From Sulfurovum sp. (GTDB lineage Bacteria > Campylobacterota > Campylobacteria > Campylobacterales > Sulfurovaceae): DNA of 64,000 nt. Below the pieces are notes generated by a model. That model was not told the DNA's origin, made no database searches, and saw only the letters and a list, made by a program, of their open reading frames with translations. Both the position numbers and the translations under genes were made by a program. The stretch covers positions 1-64,000 of the forward strand of contig JALXCZ010000048.1 of the NCBI GenBank assembly GCA_026990595.1. Direction: 5' to 3'. Positions 6,471-16,184 of the stretch are shown piece after piece; the stretch's first letter is position 1, and every line of letters starts with the position of its first letter.

Positions 6471-7160
6471 CTAACCTAGTTCTAAATTTAAAATATCTAA
6501 AAGTATGGCTTTGAGTTCAGTATAAGAGGTGATATCCATTTTAGGTTCCGTAATACCTTCAAACTCTATATCCAACTCATCACCTTCCTTACTCTCTAAA
6601 AGCTGTATAATTTGCTTCTCAGTGTAAGTAAAGCGATACTCTTTGATAGTATCTAATAAGTTTTTAGCTGTGAAGTTATGATATTTTAGTAGATACACAA
6701 GGTCATATAAATCTCTAATTTTATTTCTGTCTAAAATTAAAAGTGATTTGAGTTTAAAGAGTGCATCTAAACTTGTAATATTCAGTGTGCCAAGCTCCAA
6801 TCCTTTATCGTTCTGCAAAATCTCTCTTTCATAGATATTACTAGAGGGATTAACAACAAAATCAACTTTTACACCATCTATAGAAAAGCGTTGATGATAC
6901 TCTTCCATTACTCCACCTTCATTGGTCATCGTATCAATGATAGCTCTATCAAATGGTAATGATTCAGCATTATAGTTTGATAAAAAGTCTAATGAAGGTA
7001 AAGTTCTATGATGAGGAAAAGCAATATCAAGGTCAAAACTTACGCGATGTTGTGTATGATATGCTATAGCTGTACCCCCTATGAGTACAGCTTTATGTTC
7101 AGAAAATATTAGCTCTTTAGAAAATGCCTCTAAAAGTTTTTCGGCTGGAGGGTAAATCAT
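6471..7160 (-). CDS. Nucleotidyltransferase, AbiEii/AbiGii toxin-like
   Basis: VLIGGTAIAYHTQHRVSFDLDIAF nucleotidyltransferase motif, DLYDLVYLLKYHNF. Confidence 0.8.
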   Translation of the reverse strand: MIYPPAEKLLEAFSKELIFSEHKAVLIGGTAIAYHTQHRVSFDLDIAFPHHRTLPSLDFLSNYNAESLPFDRAIIDTMTNEGGVMEEYHQRFSIDGVKVDFVVNPSSNIYEREILQNDKGLELGTLNITSLDALFKLKSLLILDRNKIRDLYDLVYLLKYHNFTAKNLLDTIKEYRFTYTEKQIIQLLESKEGDELDIEFEGITEPKMDITSYTELKAILLDILNLELG

Positions 7161-7438
7161 GCTACGTGTTTAGTATGGCGAAGATAGTTTGAGACAGTGG
7201 CAAAAAGTTGTTCTGATACTCTATCTCTATAGGTCTCAAGCGACTTTAAAATCATCTCTTCACCAAAATATTCTGCAAGTGTCGAGATCACTTTCTTGCT
7301 GTAACCATTTTTAAGAGCAGAGACTATGAAGATATTACTTTTTATCGTTTTATTACGGTCTACATTCCAAACTACTGCTGGATCCAAACCTATAGATAAT
7401 AAATCATTAGGAGTACATGTTTGATTTGTATTTATCAT
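7157..7438 (-). CDS. Small protein upstream of and overlapping the AbiEii-like gene; candidate antitoxin
   Basis: 93 aa, 4-bp overlap with the nucleotidyltransferase ORF, same strand. Confidence 0.6.
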   Translation of the reverse strand: MINTNQTCTPNDLLSIGLDPAVVWNVDRNKTIKSNIFIVSALKNGYSKKVISTLAEYFGEEMILKSLETYRDRVSEQLFATVSNYLRHTKHVA

Positions 7439-7523: not shown

Positions 7524-8735
7524 TCAAATCTCCCCTCTAAATGCCCTATCTAAAATGGAAGCTTTCAAATCTTTCAGGCTCTGCATCTTCTCTTGTTGCT
7601 CTTTTTTGAGGGCTTGGGTTTTGTGCGAGAGTTGGTCGAGGTATTGGACGATTTTTTGTTGGATTTTTAGGGGTGGTAAGATGACAGGGTATTCTCTCAT
7701 TGTTTTTAATGATACATTATTTATAGTTGAGCCCGTTGCATTCGCTCTAATATATCTTTGGAAATCGCCATTTTTGATAACATATACGATGTAAAACTTA
7801 TCTATATTTTCTTTCAGATTAAAATAACATGCACTTTTCCCTAAAACACACTTTTCATTATTATACAAAGCAACATTTCCAATTGTCCCGTTTATGGAAA
7901 CTAAAATTGTTTTATTGGTTAAGTCCTTTTTGTATTTTTCATATTCTGATTTATTTATTTTTTTTGTATTGTCTTTAATGAAAATTTTATTATTCAATAA
8001 ATTTGCACCATTAATAAAATGATAATCACCGGTCTCATCATACTTAGGTGTACCATGTAAACCATCACCAAGCTTAGTAACTATATCTTTTAATAATTTC
8101 TTCTCATACCTCTCCTCCAACTCTCCAAACACCTCATTCAACACCGATCCCATAAAAGCATCTGCTTCGTCGATGTTCTGCTGATGCAGAGCAATGGCAT
8201 GGTCTATCTTGGCAAAGAGGCTGTCAAGCTTGGCTACGATGCGTTTTTGTTCTTGGAGGGGTGGGAGGGGAATTTTAAATTCTTTTATTGTCCGTAAAAC
8301 AACTCTTTTTATTGCTGCACCTGTTTTACTCTTAATTGCTTTTTCCATGAAAAGAGGACTTTGTAAAAAGTTTTGTAAATATTCTGATAATATGCATTCA
8401 GATGGTCGCAAAATTGCCAAGGAAGAAAGAATTACAAATGGAGTTTCATAATTTACCAATGCAACTTTTCCTACTGTACCATCTTTAGAAAATAGGACAT
8501 CACCATTAAATGGCATACAATTACCTTTAGTTAATAATTCAAAATCTTTTTCAGATATTAATTTACAATTATCAAAATCAATTCTTCCATTACTATCTAC
8601 ATCTTTTACTGTAATGTAGGGATATCCATTTTCAATAGTTTTTGGAGATTTGTGAGCACCATCAGTAATTTTTGTACATACTTCATTTAAGCTCTTCCAC
8701 TCCCACCCTTCAGGAAGCTTATACAATTCACTCAT
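7524..8735 (-). CDS. hsdS: Type I restriction-modification specificity subunit HsdS
   Basis: Two target-recognition halves; LPEGWEWKSLNEVC, PLPPLQEQKRIVAKLDSLFAKID, LPPLKIQQKIVQYLDQL. Confidence 0.93.
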   Translation of the reverse strand: MSELYKLPEGWEWKSLNEVCTKITDGAHKSPKTIENGYPYITVKDVDSNGRIDFDNCKLISEKDFELLTKGNCMPFNGDVLFSKDGTVGKVALVNYETPFVILSSLAILRPSECILSEYLQNFLQSPLFMEKAIKSKTGAAIKRVVLRTIKEFKIPLPPLQEQKRIVAKLDSLFAKIDHAIALHQQNIDEADAFMGSVLNEVFGELEERYEKKLLKDIVTKLGDGLHGTPKYDETGDYHFINGANLLNNKIFIKDNTKKINKSEYEKYKKDLTNKTILVSINGTIGNVALYNNEKCVLGKSACYFNLKENIDKFYIVYVIKNGDFQRYIRANATGSTINNVSLKTMREYPVILPPLKIQQKIVQYLDQLSHKTQALKKEQQEKMQSLKDLKASILDRAFRGEI

Positions 8736-8869: not shown

Positions 8870-10354
8870 CTATACATCTTTGTTCACCAAAATCTTTTCT
8901 ATCTCATCCATCAGATCATTGATCTCGGCATTGTTCACTTTGATGTTCTCCACCAATTCCAACGGTGACTTATGCTCTATCACCTCGATGTTATTCGGGT
9001 TCTTCGCAGAGATGTCGTACTCTTTAATGTCATTGACATTAACTATCCACGAGTTATCGGTAAGCTTTCGTTCTTTCCATACACTCAAAAATTCTTTGAA
9101 GTGCTCATACTGGATGGGTCTGTTTTTTGTGAGCTTCTTTTCAGGGGTGACTTCATAGTAGAAGATATCCGAAGTACTCCCATTACGGTCGAAAAATACT
9201 ACATTGGTCTTTACCCCACTGTAAGGCAAAAACACGCCACTAGGCAGGCTGAGTATGGTATGCACATTAAAACGCTCTAAAAGCTCCTTTTTAACTGCTT
9301 GAAACGCCTTGTTTGTCTGAAACAACACACCCTCAGGAATGACCACACCACATCTACCCTCTAGTTTGAGGTGGTTCATCATGTGTTGCAGAAAGAGAAG
9401 CTCTGTTGCGTTAGATTTAATGGGGAAGTTCTGCTGTATCTGCTCTTTCTCTTTCCCTCCAAAAGGTGGGTTTGCCAGTATGCAGTCATAGTGGTCTTTC
9501 TCTTCGAGTCCTCGTATGTCTTTGGTAAGGGTGTTAGTCTTGGCAATGTTGGGCGACTCGATGCCATGGAGTATCATATTCATCACACCCATCACGTAGC
9601 TTAATGGTGTCTTTTCGTTACCGAAAAAAGTCTCTTGGTTTAGAAACTTCAGCTCTGTAGTAGAAAGCTCCCTCTGTTTGTTCGCCTCCACATCGTCATA
9701 ACGTATATGGTTATATGCCTCTATCAGAAACCCACATGACCCAACTGCAGGGTCATAGATGCTCTCACCTATCTGAGGGTCAACCACATCAACGATGGTC
9801 TTAATGAGTGGTCGAGGTGTATAAAACTCCCCAGAGTTACCCCCATCACTCCCCATGTCCTTGAGCAGTTTTTCATAGATGAGCGAGAGCTGAAACAAAT
9901 CAGCCTGAGAGTGAAAGTCCATCGCATCGATGATGTCCAGCACCTCACGAAGCGTATGCCCATTGGCTATGCGATTATCGATAAATTCAAAAATAGCCCC
10001 TATCTTATACTTCACCGACTTCACATCAGCAGTGATGGACTTAAACCCTTTGAGGTACGAGAACAGTTCATCATTCACAAAGTCAAGCAAATCATCCCCA
10101 CTCTGAGCATTCATAAGGTTAAGCTTTCCCTTATCATCTTTAGGACAAGCCCAAACATCCCAACGATACTTCTCGTCTATGATGTAGGTATATTCCTTAC
10201 CATCCAGCTCCGCTTCTTCTGCCTTGTTTATCTCAAGGTCATTGATGAACTTTAGAAAGAGTATCCAAGATATCTGCTCTGTGTACATCATCGCACCAGA
10301 GATGCCGTCGTCTCGACGGAGGATGTCGGTTATTCTGTTTATTTTACTTTCCAT
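8870..10354 (-). CDS. hsdM: Type I restriction-modification methyltransferase subunit HsdM
   Basis: GEFYTPRPLIKTIVDVVDPQIGESIYDPAVGSCGFLIEA; NPPF (ILANPPFGG). Confidence 0.95.
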   Translation of the reverse strand: MESKINRITDILRRDDGISGAMMYTEQISWILFLKFINDLEINKAEEAELDGKEYTYIIDEKYRWDVWACPKDDKGKLNLMNAQSGDDLLDFVNDELFSYLKGFKSITADVKSVKYKIGAIFEFIDNRIANGHTLREVLDIIDAMDFHSQADLFQLSLIYEKLLKDMGSDGGNSGEFYTPRPLIKTIVDVVDPQIGESIYDPAVGSCGFLIEAYNHIRYDDVEANKQRELSTTELKFLNQETFFGNEKTPLSYVMGVMNMILHGIESPNIAKTNTLTKDIRGLEEKDHYDCILANPPFGGKEKEQIQQNFPIKSNATELLFLQHMMNHLKLEGRCGVVIPEGVLFQTNKAFQAVKKELLERFNVHTILSLPSGVFLPYSGVKTNVVFFDRNGSTSDIFYYEVTPEKKLTKNRPIQYEHFKEFLSVWKERKLTDNSWIVNVNDIKEYDISAKNPNNIEVIEHKSPLELVENIKVNNAEINDLMDEIEKILVNKDV

Positions 10355-10371: not shown

Positions 10372-10576
10372 TATGGGTAATTTTTACCGTTTTTTATACA
10401 TAGGTCATAAGCTATGGGTAAATTATTGACTTTTTTACCCATAGGTTTGAACCTATGTTAACTTTTTTGCGTTTTTTTAACATAAACCGTTTGATATGTT
10501 AGAATTTTAGCCTTTTTCTAACATATTAGAGAGCATATGTTAGATTATATGCCTTTTTTTAACATATCAAAGAGCT
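10372..10576. repeat. Five tandem 41-bp units with covarying dyads between fic and hsdM
   Basis: Units start at 10372, 10413, 10454, 10495 and 10536; TATG at unit positions 1-4 and CATA at 28-31 in all five. Confidence 0.88.
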
Positions 10577-11609
10577 CTTTATTGATAAAATATTTACTTC
10601 TACCTATTTTTATACCCTCCATCATGCTGTGTTTTTCCAACTCATTCAAATAGATTGAAGCTGTTTGTCGAGCAATACCTAAACCCTCCACCAAAAAATC
10701 AATCTTCGTATAAGGGTGCATAAAAAGTATCTCTACCAAATCCTTACTATAAATCTTTGGCAGCTTCTCTTTTATCTCTATTTTGGTTTTGTGCATGAGT
10801 GCATAAATACCGTTAATGAGTTCTATAGTCTCCAATGATGTCTGCTCCACACCATCGAGCATATAGAGTATCCACTTCTCCCAGTTCTCTTTAGTGCGTA
10901 CCTCTTGCAGCAGTCGGTAGTAGTCTGCCTTATGCTGAATGATGTACGAACTCAGGTACAAGATAGGAATATCTAACAGCTCTTTGAGTATGAGGTACAA
11001 GATATTGATGATCCTCCCTGTCCTGCCGTTACCGTCATAAAACGGATGTATACTCTCAAACTGATAATGAATAATCGCCATATTGACCAACGGGTCAAGC
11101 TCATTTGGTTCATTGATGTATGCTTCAAGATTTGCAAGCAGTTCTTCTATAACCTCATACTCCTGCGGTGGTTCAAACACTACTTCCCCTGTAGCCATGT
11201 TACGAAGCACCGTACCACTCTGCCGCCTCACCCCTGCATCATTCTGCTCCAACTCTTTTTGAATGGTGATGATGTCTCTTTTGATCAAAAGCTTATTCTC
11301 CTGCACCAAAGCAAACCCTTTGAGCAAAGCCTGTCGGTAATGCTCCACCTCTTTAGTCTTATGGGTCACAGAACTTATGTCCAATTCCGCACGAAAAAGC
11401 TCATCATGCGTGGTGATGATATTCTCAATCTCCGAACTATCCTTAGCCTCACGAAGCACCAAAGAGTTTATAAGTATCTGAGAGTTTGGGATGATTTTTG
11501 CCACTCCGTTGAGTTTGGCTAAGGCACGGTTGGCGGAGATGGCTTTTTTTAGGACTTTTTGGGTTTCCATATTTGTTTGTAGAGGGAGGTTAATCATCAT
11601 TCTTCCCAA
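10545..11609 (-). CDS. Fic family protein with C-terminal winged-helix region
   Basis: Fic motif HPFYDGNGRTGR; C-terminal HTH-like IARQTASIYLNELEKHSMM. Confidence 0.93.
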   Translation of the reverse strand: MGRMMINLPLQTNMETQKVLKKAISANRALAKLNGVAKIIPNSQILINSLVLREAKDSSEIENIITTHDELFRAELDISSVTHKTKEVEHYRQALLKGFALVQENKLLIKRDIITIQKELEQNDAGVRRQSGTVLRNMATGEVVFEPPQEYEVIEELLANLEAYINEPNELDPLVNMAIIHYQFESIHPFYDGNGRTGRIINILYLILKELLDIPILYLSSYIIQHKADYYRLLQEVRTKENWEKWILYMLDGVEQTSLETIELINGIYALMHKTKIEIKEKLPKIYSKDLVEILFMHPYTKIDFLVEGLGIARQTASIYLNELEKHSMMEGIKIGRSKYFINKELFDMLKKGI

Positions 11610-13725
11610 GTAATTTATCGATATAGTGTTTATTCCTTAATTTTGCTCTTTCTAGCAATGTAGAGTATTTAATAATTTCCGTATATAATGCACCATCTTT
11701 TCTATTAAATTTACCTACTATTCGTTTATATGGTCTAAATATAAAATTCAAACCTTCTGCATCTTTAAAGTCAGAATCATTATCTACAATATCATCTACA
11801 TCAATATTTTCTCCAATCAAATATCCATAAAAAGTATTAAATTTATATTTATCTTTTGATAAATTATTTATTAGTGAAGCATATCTATTTATTTGTGTTA
11901 GATGATTGGATATATTTACATTAGGTGTTTTGAATTCTATAATAATACATTTACTTTCTTTTGGAAATAATAAAATATCTGTTCTATTTAATCCTGCATC
12001 ACCTTCTTGTTTTAATTTATATTGCTCTTCTTCTAGAGTTAATTTCTCTTTAAATATTGTTTCATTATTTAACATTATTGTTCCAAGAGAACCTTCAGAA
12101 GCTCCCTTAAAGTATATATAATCTTCATTGAGAATCCACATATCACTTGTATTAGAATCTACAGAATGTTTAGGAAAAATCAAGTTATGTAATAACTCTT
12201 CATCAATATTTCTACCTCCATTATTTTGTATAGTTAATGTACGATTTAAAACTTTGTCAAATAAATCAAGAACTAGCTTTCTTCTTGCTACTGCATGAGT
12301 TAATGCTGTTCTATTTTGAAGAGGAATTACTTGAACTAATTCTTCAATATGTTGATTTAACTTATTTTGATAGTTATTTTGTTCCGAATTAGTCAAATCT
12401 AAGGTATCAAGTTGATCAATTTTTTCTTTAATCTCTGCATCTTTTTCTGCAATAATTGCGACATCAGCCTTATATACTTTTTTTAATATGCTTTCATCTG
12501 TATCATTAATATTGATTTTTGCATTTTGTATTGTTTTTTCATTTAAAAGAAACATTTTTCTTAATTTATCAAGATTTTCTTCATGTTTTTTCTTTTTATC
12601 TCTAATTTCTTCATACATAGATAAAATTTTACTATTTACATGATTATTAATATCATCCAGCAAAATTAATTCTTGATCTTTATTTAATGTTTTTTTAGCT
12701 TCTTCTTCAGTATATAGTTCTAACTCACCTCTATTATCACTATCTTTTTTATCTATATATTCTCCAGAAACAAGAAAAAGATATCTATTTGAATCAATGG
12801 ACTCCTTTGGTTTCAATACATCAAGTGAAACATTTTCTACAATATTTTTATTTATAATAATCTCTTGTTTGCTAGTTAATTTTAAAGAATTTTCTGACAA
12901 CATACTTTGATTAATAACAAACGATTTTATAATAAATTTTTCACTATTTTCTACTTTAATAAAATCAGTACCATTAAACATTTTATAGTTGATTTCAATT
13001 ATTTCTTCTTTGTTGACTTCTACAATATCATTAGCAGTAATTGTTTCTATCTCTGAAGATGAGTCTGTTTTTATAGTTATTGTTGGAAGTGTCTCCCTAT
13101 TAGCAGCAAAATATTCTAAATATCGGTGTAATATTTCTTGCTTTAAAATAGTAGGAGTAAGCTCACTATACAGTCTTTTATCATCATCATCCAATAAAGT
13201 TTTTAATTCTAACTTTGTATAACTATTCTTTTTATCTTTTTCAATTGAGGGATTTTTATAAACTAGTATAGAATGTTGTTCTAAATATCTTTTAGATTTA
13301 GATAATTTAAAATACCTTTTTAAAAAATCTTTTTTTTCTTGATTATTCTTATAAACACTTTCATATATTGCTACATCAAAATAATGTATAAATTGTAATC
13401 TACCAGAACCTTTATTTGCAAAACCTTTGCTTTCATCATAAATATTTTTTAATCTATCAAATCCTTTATCTGTAAAACCAATACCTGTATCTATGATTGA
13501 TATAGATTGTAAATTTTTAACATCATTATCATTTGAAAATAAAGTACCTTTGAAATTTAAACTTATAGTTATTTCTCTCTTGCAACCATTACACATCTTA
13601 ATAGCTTCAAGTGAATTAGTAAATGCTTCATAAATTGGTTGTAAATAATTTTTAGATTTTTTTATTCTTTTAAGCAAACCAGGATAATTCATTCCCTTTG
13701 CTTCATAATAGTTATATTGTATCAC
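11590..13725 (-). CDS. GHKL (HSP90-like) ATPase with C-terminal PD-(D/E)XK-like nuclease region
   Basis: N box YEAFTNSLEAI, IIDTGIGF, NKGSGRLQFI; C-terminal GLNRTDILLFPKESKCIIIEFKTPN; overlaps fic by 20 bp and hsdR by 4 bp. Confidence 0.75.
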   Translation of the reverse strand: MIQYNYYEAKGMNYPGLLKRIKKSKNYLQPIYEAFTNSLEAIKMCNGCKREITISLNFKGTLFSNDNDVKNLQSISIIDTGIGFTDKGFDRLKNIYDESKGFANKGSGRLQFIHYFDVAIYESVYKNNQEKKDFLKRYFKLSKSKRYLEQHSILVYKNPSIEKDKKNSYTKLELKTLLDDDDKRLYSELTPTILKQEILHRYLEYFAANRETLPTITIKTDSSSEIETITANDIVEVNKEEIIEINYKMFNGTDFIKVENSEKFIIKSFVINQSMLSENSLKLTSKQEIIINKNIVENVSLDVLKPKESIDSNRYLFLVSGEYIDKKDSDNRGELELYTEEEAKKTLNKDQELILLDDINNHVNSKILSMYEEIRDKKKKHEENLDKLRKMFLLNEKTIQNAKININDTDESILKKVYKADVAIIAEKDAEIKEKIDQLDTLDLTNSEQNNYQNKLNQHIEELVQVIPLQNRTALTHAVARRKLVLDLFDKVLNRTLTIQNNGGRNIDEELLHNLIFPKHSVDSNTSDMWILNEDYIYFKGASEGSLGTIMLNNETIFKEKLTLEEEQYKLKQEGDAGLNRTDILLFPKESKCIIIEFKTPNVNISNHLTQINRYASLINNLSKDKYKFNTFYGYLIGENIDVDDIVDNDSDFKDAEGLNFIFRPYKRIVGKFNRKDGALYTEIIKYSTLLERAKLRNKHYIDKLLGKNDD

Positions 13726-16058
13726 TTATAAATCTCCCTCTGCAACCCAAAATACCCCTCACGTATATTCACAGCTCCATCAAATGCCTCTTTGAGTTCG
13801 TTTCTGTCTATCCCAGAAAGTTTAATAAGGGAAGAGAGCTTATCACTCCCCATCTCTTTAACTCCATCTTTCTCATACCGTTCTAAGATAAAGTTCAAAA
13901 ACTCTTTGACCTTACCGTTATGATACTTCTCTATATACTTTCGGTAATGCACAGCAAAAGCCCTCTCACTGCGTGTCTTGATCTCTAGGTTGAACGCCAA
14001 GTGAGCCAGTACATCGTAGATGTCACTCTCTTCAGCATCAAAGATGGCTTTGAGTTCTTCTAGTTGTACTTCGTCTATCTGCATACTTCGCAACTTACCC
14101 AGAAGCTCTTCACGCTTCACAGGGTCTGACCATAACTCTCTGAGTTGTATTTCATCATGAAAAAACTTGTCGAGTATACCTACCAAAAACTCTAAAAATT
14201 CATGGGTTTTAAGAGGGATGCCATCTTCTCCTACATAGGTCGTCTCTATGTCTATGACTTTGAGCTTTCTCCCTCGAATGTCAATAGTTACTTTCTCTTT
14301 GCCTTTGACAGGCTCAGGCACCGGATCACTTGGATCACGGTCGCCATAAGGAAGCTTGGGCTCTTTGACCTTGTCTGTTCCCGTATCAGGCTCTACCGTA
14401 GTTTCATCTATCTGCTCTTCAGGTAAACCATCCCACGCATCATCATAAAAAAGGTTTGTCGCACCCACAAAGTCGATGATGGTAAAAAAGTCCTTACCCT
14501 CATATACTCTCGTACCACGCCCGATGATCTGTTTGAACTCTGTCATAGAACGAATGGGAGCCGTGAGGACGACATTTCGTACATTCTTTGCATCTACTCC
14601 TGTGGTAAGCATCTTGGAAGAAGTCAAGATAGTCGGAATGTCTCTGTCATTGTTCTGAAAAGCTTCAAGGAAGTCACGCCCTATCTCTCCTTCATCAGAA
14701 GTAACACGAACACAGTAGTCGTTGTCTTTGACTGTTTTGTACTTGTCTATGGCTATTTTCATGTCGATTGCGTGTTTTTGGTTTACACAAAAGACGATGG
14801 TTTTATCCATAGGGTTTATCTGCTCTAGTATAGTTTTGGCAACAAGCTCTGTACGCTTGGGAATGATGACTTGCTTTTCAAACTTGTCGAGTGTGACTAT
14901 CTGCTCTTCTAGTTCGCCTTGCACGATGTCATTAGGGTTAAACTTGTACTCATCAATATTTGTCTTGATACGCTTTACCTTGTAAGGCGTAAGGAAACCA
15001 TCATTTATCCCCTCTTTGAGAGAGTACTCGTAGACAGGTTCACCGAAATACTTGTATGTATCACCATTGTCATCTCTTTTGGGTGTGGCAGTCAATCCCA
15101 AATGCACCGCAGAACCGAAGTAGTCCAGTATCTCCCTCCAGGAACTCTCATCGTTCGCAGAGCCTCTGTGACATTCGTCTATAACAATCAGGTCGAAAAA
15201 CTCTTCTGGGTACTGCTTGTAGTAGGCTGTTACATCGTTCTCTTCATCAAACTCATCTGACTTACGCTCAGCGATGGACTGATAGATAGCAAAGAATACA
15301 TTGGCATTGGTTGGTACTCTGCCACCTCGCTTTCGTATCTCCTTGCCATTAACACGGACGATGTCTTTTTCTAGTGGATTAAAAGTGTTAAAGGCTTGGT
15401 CTGCCAATACATTTCTATCTGCTAAGAAAAGTACCTTAGGTCGTCTCTGCGTGCCAGACTTACTCCATTTGGCTTCAAAAAGTCTATAGACTATCTGAAA
15501 AGCGATGTAAGTCTTACCTGTACCTGTAGCAAGGGTAAGCAGTACCTTGTCTTTACCATTGGCAATGGCTTCAAGGGTTTTGTCCACGGCTATCTGCTGA
15601 TAGTAGCGTGGTTTCATACTGCCTTCAAAATGGAACGGTTGTTTGATGATGCTCTCTTTGGTAGGGGTAAGCGTAGGAAACTTTCTCTCAAAAAGTGTCT
15701 GTGGCGTAGGGAAAGATTCTACCCAGTCACCTTTACCTGTAATAAGATTATGTTCATAAATCTTATGTCCGTTGGTCGCATAGACAAAATCTATCTTAAG
15801 TTTTTGAGCATAATTGATAGACTGCTGTAGTCCATCGAGAGGATCTTTATTCTCAGCTTTGGCTTCGATGATGGCAAGATTGCTGTTTTCATATACAAGA
15901 AGGTAGTCCACATAATACCGCTTCCCACGCTTCCCACCAATGAGCTTACGCCCATCTGTAAAGTAGTATTCACGGACAATGTGAGATTCTAGCCAATGAC
16001 TGGATTTAATTTGAGGGTCGATAAGTTTAGCTCTAGTATCTGCTTCTGTATATGCCAT
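13722..16058 (-). CDS. hsdR: Type I restriction endonuclease subunit HsdR (EcoEI-like)
   Basis: YYVDYLLVYENSNLAIIEAKAEN nuclease motif; Walker A LATGTGKT; DECHRG; helicase C QIIGRGTRV; start taken as MAYTEAD rather than the longer ORF. Confidence 0.93.
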   Translation of the reverse strand: MAYTEADTRAKLIDPQIKSSHWLESHIVREYYFTDGRKLIGGKRGKRYYVDYLLVYENSNLAIIEAKAENKDPLDGLQQSINYAQKLKIDFVYATNGHKIYEHNLITGKGDWVESFPTPQTLFERKFPTLTPTKESIIKQPFHFEGSMKPRYYQQIAVDKTLEAIANGKDKVLLTLATGTGKTYIAFQIVYRLFEAKWSKSGTQRRPKVLFLADRNVLADQAFNTFNPLEKDIVRVNGKEIRKRGGRVPTNANVFFAIYQSIAERKSDEFDEENDVTAYYKQYPEEFFDLIVIDECHRGSANDESSWREILDYFGSAVHLGLTATPKRDDNGDTYKYFGEPVYEYSLKEGINDGFLTPYKVKRIKTNIDEYKFNPNDIVQGELEEQIVTLDKFEKQVIIPKRTELVAKTILEQINPMDKTIVFCVNQKHAIDMKIAIDKYKTVKDNDYCVRVTSDEGEIGRDFLEAFQNNDRDIPTILTSSKMLTTGVDAKNVRNVVLTAPIRSMTEFKQIIGRGTRVYEGKDFFTIIDFVGATNLFYDDAWDGLPEEQIDETTVEPDTGTDKVKEPKLPYGDRDPSDPVPEPVKGKEKVTIDIRGRKLKVIDIETTYVGEDGIPLKTHEFLEFLVGILDKFFHDEIQLRELWSDPVKREELLGKLRSMQIDEVQLEELKAIFDAEESDIYDVLAHLAFNLEIKTRSERAFAVHYRKYIEKYHNGKVKEFLNFILERYEKDGVKEMGSDKLSSLIKLSGIDRNELKEAFDGAVNIREGYFGLQREIYK

Positions 16059-16184
16059 CTTACCTCTCCCCAATTTGAAGTAATATATTTTAGCGTAAAA
16101 AGTTATAGGATTGATTAGGTATGTTTATCTATCTGGTAGTAAGGGGGTTAGTTGGATTTTAATGGATTGTATTGGATAGTTAAG

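Follow-up and report, generated by a model that had tools for sequence, protein, structure and literature searches.

A 41-bp dyad array between fic and hsdM in a Sulfurovum type I restriction locus: a probable operator lattice for SoFic-type Fic proteins

What is the role of five phased 41-bp dyads that lie between a fic gene and the methyltransferase gene of a type I restriction system? The question arises from a 64,000-nucleotide stretch of a Sulfurovum sp. contig (hereafter, the window), whose minus strand carries, in this order, hsdR, a 711-aa ORF, fic, the array, hsdM, hsdS, a small ORF, and an AbiEii-like gene. The hsdR gene (13722..16073, minus strand) encodes an EcoAI/FtnUII-family type I restriction subunit (NCBIfam NF046051, above cut-off), hsdM (8870..10354, minus strand) the type I modification methyltransferase (Pfam, PADLOC), and hsdS (7524..8735, minus strand) the type I specificity subunit (Pfam). 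The C-terminal part of the 711-aa ORF between hsdR and fic (11590-13725, minus strand) matches HSDR_N weakly, and neither PADLOC nor NCBIfam gave a match for this ORF. Downstream of hsdS, the AbiEii-like nucleotidyltransferase gene (6471-7438, minus strand) is preceded by a 93-aa ORF without family match, and the two may be an AbiE-like pair.

The fic gene (10545..11609, minus strand), which likely starts at an ATG at codon 4 or 5 of the ORF, encodes a SoFic-type protein adenylyltransferase with Fic_N, Fic, and SoFic-like C-terminal winged-helix domains, all three above the Pfam cut-off. Both the HxFx(D/E)GNGRxxR motif (HPFYDGNGRTGR at 188) and the (S/T)xxxE(G/N) inhibitory motif (SSEIEN at 58) are intact. 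The protein is identified as SoFic by PADLOC (E 5e-116), which lists SoFic as an anti-phage system, and its residues 11-351 match the solved SoFic structures (3EQX, 3ZCN; phmmer E ~3e-90). At 409.5 bits, it misses the equivalog cut-off of NCBIfam NF046030 (550 bits); judged by its domains, it is a member of the SoFic family outside this narrow equivalog.

The array was re-examined against a preliminary description of the window, in which five consecutive units start at 10372, 10413, 10454, 10495, and 10536, each with TATG at positions 1-4 and CATA at positions 28-31; these unit sequences, starts, and motif positions are all exact. The description also has unit 5 straddling the fic stop codon and the array filling the fic-hsdM gap, and both points were confirmed: the stop codon is at 10545-10547 (minus strand), and 17 bp separate the end of the array from the hsdM start (10354). 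The second dyad described at the unit junctions, CATA-N10-TATG, is likewise real. Because the minus strand encodes both fic and hsdM, the functional orientation of the array is the reverse complement. On that strand, the fic-proximal unit 5 (10536..10576), which overlaps the last fic codons and the stop, has half-sites TATGTTAA / TATGTTAG with the core TTA, called Q-type below, followed by unit 4 (10495..10535; TATGTTAG / TATGTTAG), unit 3 (10454..10494; TATGTTAA / TATGTTAA), and unit 2 (10413..10453; TATGGGTA / TATGGGTA), which has a K-type core. The hsdM-proximal unit 1 (10372..10412) is asymmetric, with half-sites TATGTATA / TATGGGTA (arms TATGTATA / TACCCATA), and may overlap an hsdM promoter. 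A sigma-70 scan found sites no more commonly than in shuffled sequences and no usable promoter inside the array.

This arrangement is far from what base composition would produce. The pattern TATG-N23-CATA occurs at six sites in the 64-kb window, five of them within the array, and at least two such sites were present in none of 5,000 dinucleotide-preserving shuffles of the 223-bp region (4,983 had none and 17 had one). Identity at a lag of 41 in the array region is 0.66, compared with 0.31 +/- 0.03 in shuffles (shuffle maximum 0.43). The array is also unique in its own genome: a whole-genome DNA search found no further copies, a two-unit covariance model returned the window array as its sole match, and, with up to three mismatches, a TTA-type pattern matched units 3-5 only and a GGTA-type pattern units 1-2 only, with no matches for the controls.

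Relatives within the Campylobacterales carry units of the same design. Among 122 distinct units, which were chosen without use of the pairing (core) positions, the consensus is TATG-N4-A5-N4-A4T-N4-CATA, and the unit-to-unit spacing is 40 bp (13) or 41 bp (62) in all 75 cases. Since intra-unit and junction dyads alternate, half-sites are ~19 and ~22 bp apart, each near two helical turns, and this alternation accounts for the mixed periods of an unconstrained period scan, which peak near 20 and 41. Only a few core sequences are in use (TTAA, TAAA, GGTA, AGTA, TTGT, TCGA, and CCGA), and adjoining units frequently carry the same ones. The covariation of dyad arms in the preliminary description is strong at the core in these relatives, where pairing was observed at 0.67 against a column expectation of 0.33 at position 6 and at 0.82 against 0.41 at position 7, and where perfect core pairing was found 66 times compared with 53.6 +/- 3.0 in within-array shuffles (maximum 63 in 2,000 shuffles). 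It is incomplete, as unit 1 of the window is asymmetric and full symmetry at the four core positions is present in only 58 of the 122 units.

Covarying arms, together with a transcript strand that folds well (-61.3 kcal/mol, z = -7.3) and a mostly sense orientation 3' of fic, would suit an RNA element, that is, tandem or alternative hairpins in a fic-hsdM transcript serving as an attenuator, stabiliser, or processing sites. We regard this as improbable, and the "chain of alternative hairpins" offered in the preliminary description fares poorly on several grounds: among non-Watson-Crick core pairs, 15 G-U pairs stand against 85 mismatches with no G-U excess over the column expectation, the spacing is locked at 40-41 bp, arrays also lie between convergent genes and, in other phyla, upstream of fic, and the core tracks a residue of the Fic recognition helix. 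Because the core follows this residue and G-U pairs are not in excess, the covarying arms reflect protein specificity rather than RNA pairing; on the sequence comparison, the behaviour of the core is that of half-sites for a dimeric DNA-binding protein rather than of RNA stems. In Rfam, no family matched the array at the gathering cut-off, and the best sub-threshold matches were at chance level. A type III toxin-antitoxin RNA repeat was rejected as a candidate, as the partner is a Fic adenylyltransferase, not a ToxN/AbiQ-type endoribonuclease, and the repeat is 3' of fic, not upstream.

The strongest reason for naming Fic as the reader of the array is the coupling between the half-site core and a residue of its winged helix. 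As modelled by AlphaFold2 (mean pLDDT 86), the window Fic has a C-terminal winged helix in which the recognition segment RQTASIYLNELEK (ORF residues 314-326; codons 10632..10670, minus strand) is helix 3; this segment includes the specificity-linked residue Q315 (10665-10667, minus strand). When loci were sorted by residue x of the recognition helix R-x-T-A-x-x-Y-L and half-sites were read as ATG-core-AAAA, I, L, or V was found with TATA, TAAA, or ATAA, Q with TTA, N with CACA, P with TAAA, and K with GGTA and its relatives. Outside the Campylobacterales, Fisher tests support the association of Q with TTA (p = 6.7e-7), of I/L/V/M with TATA or ATAA (1.5e-6), of K with GGTA-type cores (1e-4), and of N with CACA (3e-3); P with TAAA, taken alone in these loci, was not significant (0.056). 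Within the Campylobacterales, TTA-dominated arrays accompany RQTAS[K/I]YL in 12 of 12 cases, GTA cores are present in 8 of 8 for RKTASKYL, and RPTATNYL and RDTAGRYL pair with TAAA and TTGT, respectively. The coupling also holds on a tree from which the winged helix was left out: nine well-supported tree-independent pairs differ in Q, and TTA moves in the same direction in seven to eight of them and almost never in the opposite one (sign test, median p = 0.008). For K with GTA the direction on the tree is the same, but informative pairs are too scarce. The rules for helices with D, H, or E, or with Q followed by small residues (TCGA), derive from these same data, have exceptions, and are given as descriptive only.

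Similar arrays adjoin SoFic genes well beyond this order. On plasmids of Francisella, Psychrobacter, Aureibacter, Vibrio, Marinobacter, Ilyobacter, Acetobacter, and Persicobacter, dyads lie just upstream of genes for SoFic homologues, and in Pseudanabaena, Geminocystis, and Pontibacter they lie downstream. In a global set of 80 SoFic-like loci from many taxa, the upstream flanks were scored for a two-dyad array with a 39-43-bp period. Such an array was present in 43 of the 80 flanks, compared with 12 of 240 shuffled sequences and 6 of 80 controls from coding sequence, and the period found most often was 41 bp. At the scoring threshold, about half of the loci lack a clear array upstream. Arrays of TGTCGAT precede fic on Agrobacterium and Salmonella plasmids. 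In E. coli, a chromosomal fic of the SoFic-type family is present in 278 of 5,426 complete genomes, and at three loci (L279-L281) a lattice of ~170 bp, composed of TATGTCGATAAAA and TTTAAACATA half-sites in steps of ~10, ~20, and ~30 bp, lies upstream and ends at the start codon. The fic of E. coli strain S10 is annotated as frameshifted. A distant Thermus Fic shows no array. Because similar arrays adjoin fic across phyla and their core changes with the reading helix, the array has the appearance of docking sites for Fic. The same evidence bears on neutral tandem duplication, in which units made symmetric by template switching at quasi-palindromes would have no function. Units are indeed imperfect and tandem, and neighbours frequently share a core, but the strict phase, the invariant TATG and A-tract, the recurrence beside the same gene across phyla, and a core predictable from the protein leave this account with hardly any probability.

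Within the Campylobacterales, a two-unit covariance model built from relatives and run on family and order genomes detected arrays in 32 of 176 and 80 of 400 genomes, respectively. Of 89 arrays examined, 60 adjoin fic or a fic fragment, and 21 are directly 5' of hsdM (three of the latter with another gene or a longer gap between). The first unit overlaps the fic stop codon in ~15 loci, as it does in the window; this agrees with the suggestion that the array grew from the fic 3' end, whereas the arrays upstream of fic in other phyla speak against it as a general origin. A distant Fic lineage (~33% identity; L028-L032) has its own, different 40-41-bp dyad arrays 3' of fic, with ATAGTTAAATT-type half-sites, the first arm of which overlaps the fic stop codon in some loci.

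Could the array instead be the operator of a different regulator, whether encoded elsewhere in the restriction locus or supplied by the host, tied to Fic by shared history only? Some arrays are located 5' of YhcG-like and KilA-N-like genes, and nine that precede hsdM have no adjoining fic match. At L039, L044, L054, and L058, an array precedes hsdM and no trace of fic was seen. By contrast, fic fragments remain at many array loci without an intact fic (L111, L116, L117, L110, L048, L057, L034, L045, and L056), arrays adjoin SoFic genes in many unrelated contexts and phyla, and the half-site core tracks the Fic helix; we therefore give a different regulator little credence. Four genomes with an hsdM-preceding array and no adjoining fic (G064, G066, G067, and G124) have no close Fic, so an array can persist without its reader. 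In addition, one type I locus relic (L049, G104) consists of the array and the first hsdM codons, followed by unrelated chromosomal genes, and at L109 (10991-11551) an apparent internal deletion has joined a RhuM-like N-terminus in frame to a fic C-terminus, with the array remaining behind.

Among close hsdM relatives, two of seven with readable upstream sequence (93% and 83% identity) have no array. The array is thus not needed for every hsdM, and control of the methyltransferase by the array is plausible but not obligatory. The possibility that the array belongs to hsdM alone was rejected, as the majority of arrays are without hsdM.

Array-flanked modules in three genomes (G457, G342, and G264), one of which (G457) is missing at the ubiE-xseA site of relatives, also raise the idea of an attC-like recombination or cassette-boundary site that spreads defence genes. 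The genes ubiE and xseA are adjacent in many relatives, and the gap between them has received independent insertions: array-YhcG-RhuM-fic-array in L108 (7136-11696), array-fic in L150, and a different insert in L155. Empty ubiE-xseA sites hold no array; the array therefore arrived with the module, and a pre-existing array serving as an insertion target was rejected. No integrase gene was seen at the locus, the coupling of helix and core would be left unexplained, and most arms depart from the attC consensus. On balance, a cassette boundary seems to us a very slim prospect.

Returning to the reading by Fic, the window array is a mosaic. The resident Fic has a Q-type helix (RQTASIYL), which the TTA cores of the fic-proximal units 3-5 match, while the hsdM-proximal units 1-2 have the K-type core GGTA. 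Of eight loci with the order fic-array-hsdM, six have a fic-proximal unit that matches the resident Fic, and one has an hsdM-proximal unit that does so; the hsdM-proximal unit has a GTA-class core in six of the eight. In arrays without hsdM, the resident Fic is mostly matched at both ends. One genome (G109) is an exception, with a K-type Fic and non-cognate proximal units. Swaps of fic together with nearby units, or a constraint from the hsdM promoter, would explain the mosaic. The core of the window's GGTA units is the one expected for a K-type Fic; these units may be remnants from the time of a former resident or be under constraint from the hsdM promoter.

Overall, we consider it likely that the array is a DNA operator lattice read by the winged helix of adjacent SoFic-type Fic dimers, and the comparative evidence supports the cooperative operator array of the preliminary description, with the Fic C-terminal winged helix as its candidate binder. 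Alternately inverted half-sites (TATG-core-AAAA), ~20 bp or two helical turns apart within the 41-bp repeat, would be bound by Fic dimers, and the residue that follows the arginine in the recognition helix R-x-T-A-x-x-Y-L would do most of the reading of the core. Such an array occupies the fic promoter in most bacteria, where Fic would limit its own synthesis. In this Campylobacterales type I locus, it separates fic from hsdM, so that hsdM-hsdS would be the most likely target of Fic, itself a product of the hsdR-side operon. The sequences themselves show the array, its co-occurrence with fic, its spacing, and the coupling of half-site and helix residue; from these we infer that Fic binds, whether it does so cooperatively, in which direction it regulates, and how hsdM is affected, and repression rather than activation would be expected by analogy with CccR. 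It is also conceivable, if unlikely, that the lattice doubles as an off-switch for the toxin: Fic dimers arrayed on it would be inactive or de-AMPylating, and a phage-induced DNA change or displacement would free Fic and de-repress hsdM. Allele swaps would then leave units of former specificity, making the array a record of past resident Fics.

The closest known system is CccR of Yersinia pseudotuberculosis, a Fic-HTH autorepressor that binds as a dimer to the long-spaced inverted repeat AGATAATCAT-N26-ATGATAATCT (PMC9755527). CccR resembles the proposed reader as a class II Fic with a C-terminal HTH, as a dimer, and in autoregulation through a long-spaced inverted repeat (PMC9755527); the array dyad, with 8-bp arms, a 15-bp spacer, and an outer width of 31 bp, is also a long-spacer inverted repeat, as is the 46-bp CccR site. 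However, CccR has in its own fic promoter a single 46-bp site, whose 10-bp boxes are separated by 26 bp, whereas the array consists of tandem 31-bp dyads repeated at 41 bp with a different half-site, and is 3' of fic and 5' of hsdM in the window and mostly upstream of fic elsewhere. CccR and SoFic share only 29% identity at 45% coverage (PMC9755527). The window Fic has the domain layout of the SoFic anti-phage family (3EQX, 3ZCN; PADLOC SoFic; PMC12249575), for which no operator is described in the papers we found, whereas an operator and a reading rule are predicted here; in the open-access literature, we found nothing on a SoFic operator or a Fic-linked repeat beyond CccR. According to PMC10628234, SoFic had not been shown to bind DNA. 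CbFic2 of Coxiella burnetii, a Fic with a winged helix, does bind DNA, which alters its enzymatic state through dimerisation (PMC10628234), but this concerns random DNA only with no operator array known, in contrast to the array predicted for the window Fic. A 2025 SoFic structure paper stresses that leaky expression is toxic and, as far as we found, does not address DNA binding (PMC12249575).

SoFic proteins are widespread toxic anti-phage enzymes, and how they are silenced before infection is an open question. The predicted operator, which recurs across phyla, and its residue-to-base rule are directly testable, E. coli included, and would help to predict Fic-regulated genes. In the Campylobacterales, the array suggests that the modification half of a type I restriction system is under the control of a toxin that serves in defence.
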